Source: Ignavibacteriae bacterium HGW-Ignavibacteriae-1 (lineage in GTDB: Bacteria > Bacteroidota > Ignavibacteria > Kapaibacteriales > UBA2268). From it: a stretch of DNA of 38,252 nucleotides. Each line of letters opens with the position of its first letter. The first letter of the stretch is position 1. A program made the translations under genes and the position numbers. The stretch is from the NCBI GenBank assembly GCA_002839825.1, contig PGYU01000024.1, positions 1 to 38,252 of the forward strand, given 5' to 3'. The notes under the pieces are model-generated. The model saw nothing but the letters and a program-made list of their open reading frames with translations, made no database searches and was not told where the DNA came from. This document shows positions 8,574 to 38,252 of this stretch, one piece after another.

Positions 8574-8655
8574 AGGGGATAGGGTTTTGGGGCTTGGGGT
8601 TTGGATTTTGGGGTTCGAGGTTTGGGGTTCGATGTTCGAGGTTCGGGGTTTGGTG
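8574..8655 (+). repeat. G-rich GGGGTTT/GGGGTTC tract heading repeat element 1
   Basis: About 80 bases in which runs of three or four G alternate with TT, TTC or CTT (GGGGTTTGG, GGGGTTCG). The tract starts with AAGTAGGGG, exactly as the tract at 11548 does. The G runs are on the same strand as the hairpin modules that follow. Four or more close G runs make quadruplex formation possible. Confidence 0.85.
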
Positions 8656-8990
8656 TTATATCCCGAAGGGATATAATATGAATAACCCCGTATGAAATGC
8701 GGGGAACGAAGCAGATGCACCTTCGAAACCACGAAGTGGTTAAATATGAATAACCCCGTATGAAATGCGGGGAACGAAGCATACGCACCTTTTTCAAACC
8801 ACGAAGTGGTTAAATATGAATAACCCCGTATGAAATGCGGGGAACGAAGCATACGCACCCCAAAACAATAGATTTCGGTCTTAGGTTATTACCACGAAGT
8901 GGTTAAATATGAATAACCCCGTATGAAATGCGGGGAAAAGAAGCATACGCACCCACTTAAACCACGAAGTGGTTGAATATCTATAAAACA
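8656..8990 (+). repeat. Array of hairpin modules (four full units and one partial), element 1
   Basis: Units start near 8656, 8728, 8798 and 8890, with a partial one at 8960. Each has a short head hairpin with a GAA loop: TATCCC-GAA-GGGATA in the first unit and ACCAC-GAA-GTGGT in the others. Then come AATATGAATAA, a second hairpin CCCCGTATGAAATGCGGGG (stem CCCCGTAT/ATGCGGGG with one T-G pair, loop GAA), and the tail AACGAAGCATACGCACC. The unit at 8890 has AAAAGAAGC in place of AACGAAGC. The partial copy at 8960 pairs the same head with a different body, GAATATCTATAAAACAT, also found at 11708. Unit spacing is 62-92 bases. No protein-coding signal is credible here. Confidence 0.9.
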
Positions 8991-8993
8991 TCC

Positions 8994-11070: not shown

Positions 11071-11544
11071 ATGAAAAAATTAATTATTTATATCGCAATA
11101 TTACTATTCGCAAATGTCGCTATGAGAGCAGATTGGGGATTATTCGAAGCAATGATTTCGACCCAACCGGTCTATAATATCACAAATAATTCCGCAATAA
11201 GTGGCGGCTCCATCAATTTAACCGTTGACGACAACGATGTCACCGAAAAAGGCGTCGTTTGGTCAACTTCGACGATGCCAACAACCTTAGTCAACAACGG
11301 AATTACCGAACAAGGTCCCGGACCAACATCGGGCAATTCAACCATATTTGCATCGAATCTTACGGGTATGCAATTAGGCACAAAATATTATGTCCGTGCC
11401 TACATGGTGAACGTTGACGGCACATTCTACGGTCAGCAACGCATATTCACCACCATCCCCACGCTTGGCGAATGGGGCTTAATCGCTCTCGGACTCCTTT
11501 TCGCAAGCTTCGGTGGCTGGTTCGTCATGCGCAAAATGATGTAA
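11071..11544 (+). CDS. IPTL-CTERM sorting-signal protein with Fn3-like domain
   Basis: 157 residues. A signal-like N-terminus (to about residue 18-20) is followed by one extracellular beta-domain with the GVVWSTSTMPT, GNSTIFASNLTGM and LGTKYYVRAYMVN pattern common in Bacteroidota Fn3/Ig-like repeats. The C-terminus is the tripartite sorting signal IPTLGEWG, a hydrophobic helix (LIALGLLFASFGGWFV) and a basic tail (MRKMM). This matches the IPTL-CTERM class, known to be processed by an exosortase-H-type enzyme that is not in this window. The stop codon TAA overlaps the start of the next G-rich repeat tract (AAGTAGGGG). Confidence 0.8.
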   Translation: MKKLIIYIAILLFANVAMRADWGLFEAMISTQPVYNITNNSAISGGSINLTVDDNDVTEKGVVWSTSTMPTTLVNNGITEQGPGPTSGNSTIFASNLTGMQLGTKYYVRAYMVNVDGTFYGQQRIFTTIPTLGEWGLIALGLLFASFGGWFVMRKMM

Positions 11545-11547
11545 GTA

Positions 11548-11610
11548 GGGGTTTGGGTTTAGGGGCTTGGTGTTTGGGTTTTGGGGTTCGGGTTTGGGGT
11601 TCGGGTTTGG
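11548..11610 (+). repeat. G-rich GGGGTTT/GGGTTC tract heading repeat element 2
   Basis: About 60 bases of G runs separated by TTT, TTC or CTT, starting immediately after the IPTL-CTERM stop codon with AAGTAGGGG. It has the same make-up and orientation relative to the hairpin modules as the tract at 8574. Confidence 0.85.
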
Positions 11611-11622
11611 TTATGAGTTTTT

Positions 11623-11721
11623 TACCACGAAGTGGTTAAATATGAATAACCCCGTATGAAATGCGGGGAACGAAGCATACGCAACCCAAAACAAGCCCGA
11701 AGGGCTTGAATATCTATAAAA
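11623..11721 (+). repeat. Hairpin modules of repeat element 2
   Basis: One full unit (11623-11686: ACCAC-GAA-GTGGT head, AATATGAATAA, CCCCGTATGAAATGCGGGG hairpin, AACGAAGCATACGCA tail) is followed by a third head type, CAAGCCC-GAA-GGGCTTG (11692-11708), joined to the second body GAATATCTATAAAACAT. That second body also follows the ACCAC head at 8975, so heads and bodies combine freely. Confidence 0.9.
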
Positions 11722-11726
11722 CATTT

Positions 11727-15956: not shown

Positions 15957-16085
15957 AAACCACGAAGTGGTTAAATTTGAATAACCCCGTATGAAATGCG
16001 GGGAACGAAGCAGACGAGGTGGATGTATTATTTTTACCCACGGTTAAAACCGTGGGCTATGTTCAGACAGAACGCTGTTCTGTCC
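15957..16085. repeat. Hairpin module cluster between the secreted protein gene and the thiolase operon
   Basis: One copy of the hairpin unit (15957-16017: ACCAC-GAA-GTGGT head, AATTTGAATAA, CCCCGTATGAAATGCGGGG) is followed by two other hairpins: CCCACGGTT-AA-AACCGTGGG at 16037-16056 and GACAGAAC-GCT-GTTCTGTC at 16066-16084. Just before the unit is TGTCTTTGTTACAATTGACGG (15932-15952), related to the hairpin at 36337. No G-rich tract is attached to this copy. The hairpin at 16037-16056 lies downstream of the thiolase stop and may also end that operon. Confidence 0.85.
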
Positions 16086-16107
16086 CTACAATTATAATTG
16101 TCAAATC

Positions 16108-36365: not shown

Positions 36366-36606
36366 GATGTCTTATCCTCCAATATCTTGACAAACATAGC
36401 CCACGAATTTATTCGTGGGAAAACTAAGAAACATCTTAAAACATATATCAACACATAATAAACTAACAGCTTCGGGCTTGTTTTAGCTATTGCGGTATTC
36501 ATATTTCTGTATATATTAAACCACTTCGTGGTTTGAAAATGTTGCATATGATTCTTTCCCCGCATTTCATACGGGGTTATTCATATTCTATCCCTTCGGG
36601 ATATAA
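36366..36606 (-). repeat. Repeat element 3 (minus orientation): hairpin modules
   Basis: Reading the minus strand from 36605, a TATCCC-GAA-GGGATA head joins GAATATGAATAA, the CCCCGTATGAAATGCGGGG hairpin and the tail AAAGAATCATATGCAAC (36605-36541). Next is an ACCAC-GAA-GTGGT head (36534-36518) with a longer, diverged body. Further on, CCCACGAAT/ATTCGTGGG (36400-36419) is another hairpin of the CCCACGG type seen at 16037. This is the only copy in the opposite orientation. Confidence 0.85.
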
Positions 36607-36665
36607 CCCCAAACCCCAAAACCCAAAACCCCAAACCCCAAACCCCAAACCCCAAACCCCAAACC
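36607..36665 (-). repeat. CCCCAAA tandem tract (GGGGTTT on the minus strand), element 3
   Basis: About eight copies of the heptamer CCCCAAA, the last five perfect. On the minus strand this is a (GGGGTTT)n tract that leads into the TATCCC-GAA-GGGATA head, the same order and strand relation as at 8574-8655. It is the cleanest of the three tracts and has strong quadruplex potential. Confidence 0.9.
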
Positions 36666-36863
36666 AATTATTCCCGACATTATGAAACTTGTTGAAATCA
36701 AATTACTCAACTGATTCTTAATGCGAAACTATTTTATTATCGCATCGTATAAGATTCTACGCAGAAAGCAAACAAAAATTGAATTTTGTGCCTTAACGTT
36801 CAACTGTGTTGGTTTTTCTACTTTTTTTAATAAGGATTTACTTAATTTTAAATTGGAGTTTTC
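36666..36863. other. Upstream region of the serine protease gene
   Basis: About 200 bases with no open frame. TTGGAGTT lies 6-7 bases before the ATG at 36864, the same TGGAGTT leader as at dnaK and 9404. No confident promoter box was found. Confidence 0.5.
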
Positions 36864-38252
36864 ATGGGATTTTCATTGAAGTTTTTGTTGGTGTTAGTAA
36901 TTGTAGTTTTTTTGATAAGCCCTATTATGGCTGATGGCATAAAAGATGATGGTCCTGATTTGCAAATCATAGGTGGAGTAAACGCAGATATTGAAGACTA
37001 TCCCTGGCAAATAGCAATTTTTACTGTGGATCTTGATGGCAATTTGGAAGAGCAAATGTGTGGCGGGTCTATAATTGACCCATTTTGGATACTAACAGCA
37101 GCACATTGCGTTCTAGATGATGCTCATAAAACGCAAAAAATTGTAGCTCATATCACTCGACGCTCCCAACCCGGGCAAGGGCAAATTATTGAGATTTCGG
37201 ATTACATTATTCACGAGGGTTTCGATACCGAAATTATTCAAAGTGATGTAGCATTGCTCAGACTTGCTTACCCAATTGACACATCAAAATTTGGTTCAAA
37301 ACCTATCCGACTTCTTTCGCCGGATGAAGAACAAAATGGTTTTGTTGCTCCCGGAACGCTGGCTACAACTACAGGATGGGGAATGACAATCTACGGAGGC
37401 GATGCATCAGAATGGCTCCAAGTCACATCATTGCCGATTATTTCTTTAGAAACTGCAAATCAATGGTTCTCAGAAACTAATATACCAATTGAAGTAACCG
37501 CAGATATGTTACCTTGCGGATACGAGGAAGGTGGTAAAAGTAGCTGCCATGGCGATAGCGGTGGTCCATTATTTGTCAAAGATAATACTGATACTTGGGC
37601 ACTTGCCGGCATCACTTCTTGGGGTGCAATTTGTGCGGGAGTCAAGCAACCTGCTGTTTATACCCGAGTTCCTTATTTTTATGATTGGATTATTTCTCAC
37701 TCCAAACTTGGCATTGATGATGTGCCGACCGAAAACGATTACGTCGAAAATGTTAGAATGATTATTCCGAAAAATGTTTACTCGTGCGATGATTACACAA
37801 ATTTTGGAGATGTTCTTGTCAGAAATATGGGCTTGAATGATTTAACAAGTTTTGAAATAATTGTGAAAACCGGCAGCTCACCTGATGATATTACCAAAAC
37901 CGAAAGTCAAGTTATTACTTTGGAAAAAAGTTTACCTCCGATGGGTTCTAAAAGAATTCAAATCCCAAATATTCATCCTGACGATGTTGGTAGAAACTAT
38001 ATCGAAGTTGAGCTCAGTAAACCGAATGGTAACAATGTTGCTATCCAAAATTCTTCTAAAGGTCAATATTTTAATTATTCCGGAATCACCCCCCTTGTAC
38101 TTAGTATTGATTTGGAAGAATTATCACAGTTGGAAATTCAGGTGTTTTCACTTAGCAAAAACGAATCGAAAAGTCTTGCAACATTTATGTCTGATGATGC
38201 CGGTAAAAAGCACCAATTTGATAATTGTCTTCCTGAAGGTGAGTATCATTTA
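36864..38252 (+). CDS. Secreted trypsin-like (S1A) serine protease, 3' end outside window
   Basis: Open from ATG 36864 to the window edge: 463 codons without a stop. A signal peptide (LKFLLVLVIVVFLISPIMA) is followed by a short pro-region and then IIGGVNADIEDYPWQIAIF, the mature S1A start. The catalytic triad is clear: His in WILTAAHCV, Asp in SDVALLRL and Ser in SCHGDSGGPLF. The residue six before the catalytic Ser (chymotrypsin 189) is Ser (KSSCHGDS), so chymotrypsin-like specificity is more likely than trypsin-like. The activation bond would follow Gln (DLQ-IIGG), not Arg or Lys. After the protease (about residue 285) a CARDB-like beta-domain begins (NVYSCDDYTNFGDVLVRNMG). A T9SS sorting domain may lie beyond the edge. 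Confidence 0.9.
   Translation, partial: MGFSLKFLLVLVIVVFLISPIMADGIKDDGPDLQIIGGVNADIEDYPWQIAIFTVDLDGNLEEQMCGGSIIDPFWILTAAHCVLDDAHKTQKIVAHITRRSQPGQGQIIEISDYIIHEGFDTEIIQSDVALLRLAYPIDTSKFGSKPIRLLSPDEEQNGFVAPGTLATTTGWGMTIYGGDASEWLQVTSLPIISLETANQWFSETNIPIEVTADMLPCGYEEGGKSSCHGDSGGPLFVKDNTDTWALAGITSWGAICAGVKQPAVYTRVPYFYDWIISHSKLGIDDVPTENDYVENVRMIIPKNVYSCDDYTNFGDVLVRNMGLNDLTSFEIIVKTGSSPDDITKTESQVITLEKSLPPMGSKRIQIPNIHPDDVGRNYIEVELSKPNGNNVAIQNSSKGQYFNYSGITPLVLSIDLEELSQLEIQVFSLSKNESKSLATFMSDDAGKKHQFDNCLPEGEYHL

Follow-up and report, generated by a model that had tools for sequence, protein, structure and literature searches.

The window, meaning the whole analyzed stretch of 38,252 nucleotides (contig C39) from Ignavibacteriae bacterium HGW-Ignavibacteriae-1, carries repeat units built of (i) a head hairpin, (ii) the linker TTRAATRTGAATAR, (iii) a body hairpin, (iv) a spacer some 20 nt long, and, in most cases, (v) a second head. 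Seven identical body hairpins, CCCCGTATGAAATGCGGGG, are present, six on the forward and one on the reverse strand; because their pairing includes a G·T wobble, they fold fully on the listed strand only. An array at 8659-8991 holds four bodies and five heads head-to-tail on the forward strand, spaced 68-93 nt apart. Its unit 1 combines the head TATCCC-GAA-GGGATA (8659-8673) with the body CCCCGTAT-GAA-ATGCGGGG (8686-8704). Units 2, 3, and 4 each have the head ACCAC-GAA-GTGGT (8728-8740, 8798-8810, and 8891-8903) followed by the body hairpin (8754-8772, 8824-8842, and 8917-8935), and the array closes with a terminal ACCAC-GAA-GTGGT head that bears a second tail, AATATCTATAAAACAT (8961-8991).

Further units lie on the forward strand at 11624-11724 and 15959-16003 and inverted at 36520-36603. 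The unit at 11624-11724 consists of an ACCAC-GAA-GTGGT head (11624-11636), a body (11650-11668), and a terminal CAAGCCC-GAA-GGGCTTG head with the AATATCTATAAAACAT tail (11692-11724), while the lone unit at 15959 has an ACCAC-GAA-GTGGT head (15959-15971) and a body (15985-16003) without a terminal head. On the reverse strand, a first head TATCCC-GAA-GGGATA (36589-36603) precedes the body (36558-36576) and a terminal ACCAC-GAA-GTGGT head (36520-36532). The ten heads thus comprise three stem types (ACCAC seven times, TATCCC twice, and CAAGCCC once), all with a GAA loop, and account for 10 of the 12 perfect GAA-triloop hairpins with stems of at least 5 bp in the window. Heads are followed by either of two tails, AATATGAATAA plus the body or AATATCTATAAAACAT (at 8976 and 11709). 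A re-scan of the window confirmed the copy coordinates given in the initial annotation, which had also described at least three types of fully paired, GAA-looped heads and two different tails combining with them; both are real features of the window. Scanned against Rfam 15, the window gave no match that reached a gathering score.

The genome from which the window derives (G000; 3.2 Mb, 98.8% complete, 43 contigs) contains 30 matches to the body at up to three mismatches, distributed over eight contigs. A reversed control pattern has none under the same threshold, and the body repeats are therefore not attributable to chance. The two other genomes of the genus that were compared, G001 and the sister species G002, have three and 34 bodies, respectively. 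Heads are paired in 28 of the 30 G000 units and are of the ACCAC type in 13, of ATCC(C/T) types in 14, and of the AAGCCC type in one (two TATCCC heads were assigned by eye), with the loops GAA (25), GTAA (2), and AAA (1). The two broken heads are composites: at C30:22105, an ACCAC left arm and a GGGCT right arm are joined at GAA, and at C36:41754, a body left arm and a head right arm are joined at GAAA. The heads are thus modular, and both odd junctions coincide with the loop. Several arrays end in a final head that has no body and carries a tail like AATATCTATAAAACAT instead. On the basis of simple ORF calls, 9 of 13 arrays lie 3′ of a same-strand gene and 4 of 13 do not; the array at 8656 sits in a divergent gap, and those at 15957, at 36518, and on C42 are antisense to both neighbors.

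The units extend well beyond the genus. A broad pattern, which constrained neither the head nor most of the body stem but fixed G.AA in the body loop and CCCC/GGGG in the stem, matches 97 stretches of GTDB contigs and no stretch of viral contigs. The matches fall mainly in Bacteroidota, including Saprospiraceae, Chitinophagaceae, Siphonobacter, Parabacteroides, Segetibacter, and Dyadobacter, and units are also found in several Candidatus Parabeggiatoa; single matches are titled Thermoanaerobaculia, Anaerolineaceae, and Desulfobulbaceae, for which binning or naming errors are possible. An alignment of 71 rows (nine from G000-G002 and 62 of the 77 distinct units, with L012 incomplete) has 92.8% paired cells compared with 80.6% in shuffles, and none of 500 shuffles was as high. 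Slid versions of the structure reach 31-63% paired cells. Compensated changes occur at 9 of 14 pairs, with 126 both-side cells compared with 31 expected from shuffles, and all six pairs of the head helix, which is usually 6 bp long with outer AA/TT, have both-side changes. The two-hairpin fold is kept by compensated changes, and the head stems vary with compensation, as the initial annotation had supposed from the window; the uncompensated stem changes that it had named as a refutation did not materialize. A covariance model of the aligned set, limited to 15 scored candidates per genome, has matches at E ≤ 1e-3 in 40 of the 395 Bacteroidota genomes sampled.

Loop identity is relaxed relative to the window. 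The gathering pattern fixed G.AA in the body, whose loops therefore provide no independent evidence. Heads could be parsed outside the genus set in 75 of the 77 distinct units (80 of the 97 loci), and 58 of these 75 have a GNA or GNNA loop: GNA in 52 (GAA 37, GGA 9, GTA 3, and GCA 3) and GNNA in six. The rule for the head loop is thus GNA/GNNA, and the invariant GAA loop of the initial annotation, already reduced to 25 of 28 heads across G000, falls to 37 of 75 in other genomes. GNA and GNNA loops on G-C stems are described in PMC4686876 and PMC6479982 as extraordinarily stable DNA mini-hairpins. Any argument from loop stability rests on this literature, since ViennaRNA energies computed for all 64 triloops with DNA and RNA parameters do not discriminate among loops and show no preference for GNA. 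The listed strand has 25 G·T and 8 A·C cells (p 0.005) alongside 35 other mismatches; as the rows are related to one another, this excess is no more than suggestive. Wobbles and loops both point to the listed strand as the folding strand, and neither by itself separates DNA from RNA.

The best unit copies flank a gene of 148-149 aa in four genomes (four complete ORFs). Its products score 68.8-86.3 bits with Pfam Y1_Tnp and 55.8-67.6 bits with NCBIfam transpos_IS200 (cut-off 55). A profile search against solved structures retrieves the ISHp608 transposase 2a6m (E 4.7e-8) with the HUH and Y...Q residues aligned, whereas a single-sequence PDB search with the transposase gave no match. The four aligned proteins share Y-x3-Q-x2-HH and lack the Y...NP motif of class 2. 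According to PMC6006769 (Quentin 2018), members of TnpA_Y1 subclass 1.2 have 148 aa and the motifs DH[IV]H, WQ, and YIKNQKEHH, and Table 1 of that paper lists REP as “no” for the subclass. The matched stretches of 23 clade rows conform to (D/N)H(L/I/V)H, often with L where PMC6006769 gives I/V and with N at the first position in L247 and L261. WQ is present in 21 of the 23 rows (WA in L250 and L277), and Y...Q..HH is present in 22 (RH in L267). On these motifs, the gene is assigned to TnpA subclass 1.2 with a fit that is not letter-perfect. It is thus not a class 2 RAYT, and the RAYT named in the initial annotation does not apply in its narrow sense. A 33-row tree separates 23 high-scoring proteins (L277 included) from nine lower-scoring ones by a branch supported at 100/100; the grouping is by score, and the very long outgroup branch leaves the rooting unsure.

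Unit and gene are associated. A profile built from the four proteins, which were chosen as seeds because elements flanked their genes, matches in 164 of 395 Bacteroidota genomes with a gap in score: 24 genes in 22 genomes reach at least 196 bits, and all others remain at or below 166 bits. The unit is present in 20 of the 22 high-scoring genomes, in 13 of 142 with lower-scoring matches only, and in 7 of 231 without a match, G000 being one of these seven. With the four seed genomes removed, the comparison is 16 of 18 versus 13 of 142 (p 2e-12). Half of the element-bearing genomes (20 of 40) have no high-scoring TnpA. The flanks were inspected within 500 nt at one locus per genome, covering 22 of the 24 high-scoring genes (L247-L268), and a broken gene copy with unit copies on one side (L271) was excluded from both groups. 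At E ≤ 1e-3, copies occur on both sides of 13 loci, on one side of seven, and on neither side of two (L265 and L266, with weak hits only), and the seven lower-scoring controls have none. Relaxing the threshold to E ≤ 0.1 gives counts for both, one, and no sides of 15/7/0 and 0/2/5, respectively, the two controls having one weak hit each. The nearest copies at the 13 two-sided loci converge on the gene in eight cases, diverge in two, and are not inverted in three. Approached from the unit, 3 of the 97 unit-holding loci contain a high-scoring gene and one contains a lower-scoring gene; copies lie on both sides of the gene at L144 (Chitinophagaceae nzgw146) and L167 (HyVt-532).

Within the genus, G002 possesses the gene (tnpA, L277, C5:269571-270011). 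Upstream of it are three full tandem units with the body CCATAGGTGAAACCTATGG, and downstream, in inverted orientation, are six tandem units, three of which have exactly the CCCCGTATGAAATGCGGGG body of the window and three of which are one mismatch away. The transposase profile search found no match to tnpA in G000 or G001, and the 1.2-kb array-tnpA-array block is absent from the matching site in G000 (C12:21224-21298) and G001, where its place, between flanks that are 94/85% (G000) and 87/82% (G001) identical, is taken by 75-83 nt containing a different hairpin. The comparison establishes presence or absence of the block and not the direction of change, and a contig gap could hide a tnpA elsewhere in G000. 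A region of G000 (C14:89.5-91.0 kb) was considered as a remnant cassette and rejected: it has two weak hits (E 1.2e-5 and 5.5e-4), between which lies a 337-aa ORF, and no match to the tnpA profile.

Unit number also differs between the species. The site of 36520-36603 has five bodies in G002 compared with one in the window; one flank (36513-37600) is 92% identical, and the other best matches another G002 contig. The G002 heads at this site are of the ACCAC type, while the first head of the window there is of the TATCCC type. At the probable G002 counterpart of 11624-11724, two bodies are found compared with one, although the preceding gene has paralogues and orthology is not certain. The intergenic DNA beside the thiolase gene that matches the one at 15957 differs in both G001 and G002.

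Among known systems, the units invite comparison with the TnpA_REP/REP pair, or REPtron, of class 2 (Quentin 2018, PMC6006769; Corneloup 2021, PMC8266576). In both, hairpins are dispersed between genes and flank a HUH/Y1 gene of low copy number, have short loops and strand specificity, and form inverted pairs in some genomes. Such flanking holds at 20 of 22 loci and in G002; it does not hold in G000, where the gene is absent. The differences are a unit of two hairpins joined by a conserved linker, the lack of a GT[AG]G foot, a gene of subclass 1.2 (Y...Q..HH in place of Y...NP), and several head stems per genome. Bench-studied REP systems pair GTAG-footed hairpins with class 2 TnpA enzymes (PMC8266576). 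Inspection by eye shows no GTRG immediately 5′ of the heads in the listed units. The repeats of subclass 2.6 and class 3 are likewise described without a GT[AG]G foot in PMC6006769. The units are classed as REP-like and not as canonical REPs, because both the foot and the class 2 motif were looked for and are lacking.

The gene otherwise fits the account of subclass 1.2 in Quentin 2018: a protein of roughly 148 aa with HUH, WQ in most cases, and Y...Q..HH, encoded at low copy number in Bacteroidetes. It departs from the “REP: no” entry in that one clade here has a two-hairpin unit, the published negative having been obtained with other genomes and methods. With IS200/IS605 elements (IS608), the gene shares the catalytic core, as its HUH and Y...Q residues align with those in the ISHp608 transposase structure; unlike them, it has repeat arrays on both flanks, mostly inverted, a low copy number, and units that occur without the gene.

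REPINs, attributed to Bertels and Rainey in 2011, reportedly consist of two hairpin repeats in inverted orientation. In HyVt-532, 15 of 16 loci are likewise an inverted pair of units with a short middle, except that each half has three hairpins (head, body, and second head). The arrays of the window differ further in running head-to-tail.

The observations thus comprise a conserved fold, dispersal of the units, their turnover between species of the genus, and their association with subclass 1.2 tnpA in many Bacteroidota, the sister species included. The window copies themselves are probably non-autonomous, REP-like mobile DNA elements that TnpA would cut and move. The GNA-loop hairpins would fold when the listed strand is single-stranded, for instance on the lagging-strand template, and TnpA may recognize the hairpin shape, the loop, and the conserved linker. 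Its tyrosine would then cut the single strand at or near the linker and join it elsewhere. Strand cutting and transfer are known for TnpA_REP and IS200 enzymes (PMC8266576). The G000 copies would be the products of an enzyme that has since been lost or is missing from the assembly, and tandem growth, loss, and head exchange could arise by slippage or recombination as well as by the enzyme. The REP-type element with a TnpA-like single-strand endonuclease proposed in the initial annotation is borne out by association, as units flank the gene at 20 of 22 loci compared with 0 of 7 controls and G002 has them there with the exact body of the window; the transcribed RNA that it had offered as the other option appears less likely, considering the absence of Rfam matches and the mixed gene orientation.

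That RNA reading, in which the hairpins belong to a transcribed structured RNA (a regulatory element, an mRNA end, or a small RNA) and are read as such, is unlikely but draws on real observations: compensated changes and wobbles would look alike in RNA, and 9 of the 13 G000 arrays are 3′ of a same-strand gene by simple ORF calls. This last count and the repeats beside a lower-scoring G002 gene (L278, below) shift some weight from the REP-like to the RNA reading. The window has no Rfam match at gathering scores, however, 4 of 13 arrays do not follow a same-strand gene, and inverted pairs in HyVt-532 and the adjoining gene for a single-strand DNA transposase also speak against RNA.

Passive repeats, spread by replication slippage and recombination without an enzyme, would explain why the head-to-tail arrays, built of units of about 70 nt, vary in unit number from species to species, and the head chimera at C30:22105 and the body/head fusion at C36:41754 do resemble slippage between hairpins. 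The nearness to tnpA would then reflect a shared intergenic preference, which is difficult to square with 20 of 22 flanked tnpA loci compared with 0 of 7 controls or with units on eight G000 contigs, across Bacteroidota, and in Parabeggiatoa, and we regard a wholly passive origin as quite unlikely. Very unlikely, finally, are shortened, MITE-like derivatives of ordinary IS200/IS605 insertion sequences. The gene does exceed the NCBIfam transpos_IS200 cut-off, and species either have the entire block or lack it, as such derivation would have it. Its flanks, in contrast, are multi-copy and mostly inverted and not two distinct ends. The several near-identical gene copies per genome typical of IS200/IS605 were not seen either: Table 1 of PMC6006769 gives IS200-type genes (subclass 1.1) a mean of 4.8 copies in each genome, 99.4% identical, whereas the 24 high-scoring genes here are spread over 22 genomes.

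The second tail of the window heads appears to have a separate source. G002 has a second subclass 1.2 gene, the lower-scoring L278 (C25:4658-5092), which adjoins repeats in which a single hairpin is followed by a tail (CGAAGTGGTTACATATCTATAA and its variants). The unit model gives one-sided hits at this gene (E 3.2e-4 and 7.7e-4, from a smaller search) that coincide with the one-hairpin repeats, and it gives no hit at another lower-scoring G002 gene, L279. The one-hairpin pattern matches at eight places in C25:5111-5495 and, with one mismatch, at the terminal head of the window at 8965; because of this match, the second “body” of the initial annotation probably represents the tail of a one-hairpin repeat that belongs to another transposase.

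Repeats may be general in subclass 1.2, as 7 of 8 lower-scoring loci have at least one perfect hairpin in their flanks. The 250-nt flanks of these eight loci contain 28 perfect hairpins (stem of at least 6 bp), a few of them A/T-rich, compared with 2.9 in shuffles. A more far-reaching proposal, possible yet doubtful, is that subclass 1.2 TnpAs across Bacteroidota run an undescribed REP class of their own, that the enzyme of one clade reads hairpin shape and GNA loop and not stem sequence, and that heads are cassettes which the enzyme exchanges at the loop or linker, including between the one- and two-hairpin families of one genome.

Beyond the papers cited here, searches of open-licence PMC text, PMC12306157 and PMC3733652 included, turned up no description of this repeat or of subclass 1.2 REPs, and a text search for CCCGAAGGG produced nothing relevant, judged by title, among the matches listed. 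An enzyme subclass described as repeat-free sits here between repeats of an unusual two-hairpin type that are found in 40 of the 395 genomes. If the enzyme acts on the units, the two would form a new enzyme-substrate pair, one that maintains pairing and loop but leaves the stem sequence free to vary, and the system would offer a test case for folded-DNA recognition by single-strand transposases and for repeat diversification within one genome.

Several additional features were noted. The lower-scoring subclass 1.2 transposase genes at L269, L270, and L273-L276 have their own simple triloop hairpins in the flanks, and tails such as TTAATAG or TTTGTAG come after some of these. The sole Y1 gene found in G000 is L031 (C31, 1312-1869, reverse strand), which encodes a RAYT-like protein of 185 aa with YIHQNP and 64.3 bits to NF047646, below the cut-off of 80. 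It sits among AGACTTCCGAAGTCT hairpins, with which it perhaps forms a separate REP-like pair; as a cognate enzyme of the units it was rejected, given its RAYT-like nature and the other hairpins beside the gene.

A G-rich, TTTGGGG-like tract, read from the sequence, lies directly 5′ of the first array (8575-8655, forward strand). Similar tracts are found at about 11545-11620, at 36605-36665, and at the G002 locus matching the latter, and they directly precede several arrays in the genus, not every one; a G-quadruplex or an insertion preference is possible. Unit arrays also follow, in several places, genes that end like the IPTL-CTERM gene of the window (11071-11544), as in G000 on C36 and at C14:5.3 kb and in G002 on C10, and this gene family and the arrays may duplicate together. 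Another abundant hairpin repeat, CCCACGGTTAAAACCGTGGGCTATGTT, is found in the window at 16034-16090 (with GACAGAACGCTGTTCTGTCC) and at about 36400-36420 and is matched many times by BLAST in each of the three genomes of the genus. A relative of it occupies the site in G000 where the transposase block is absent.
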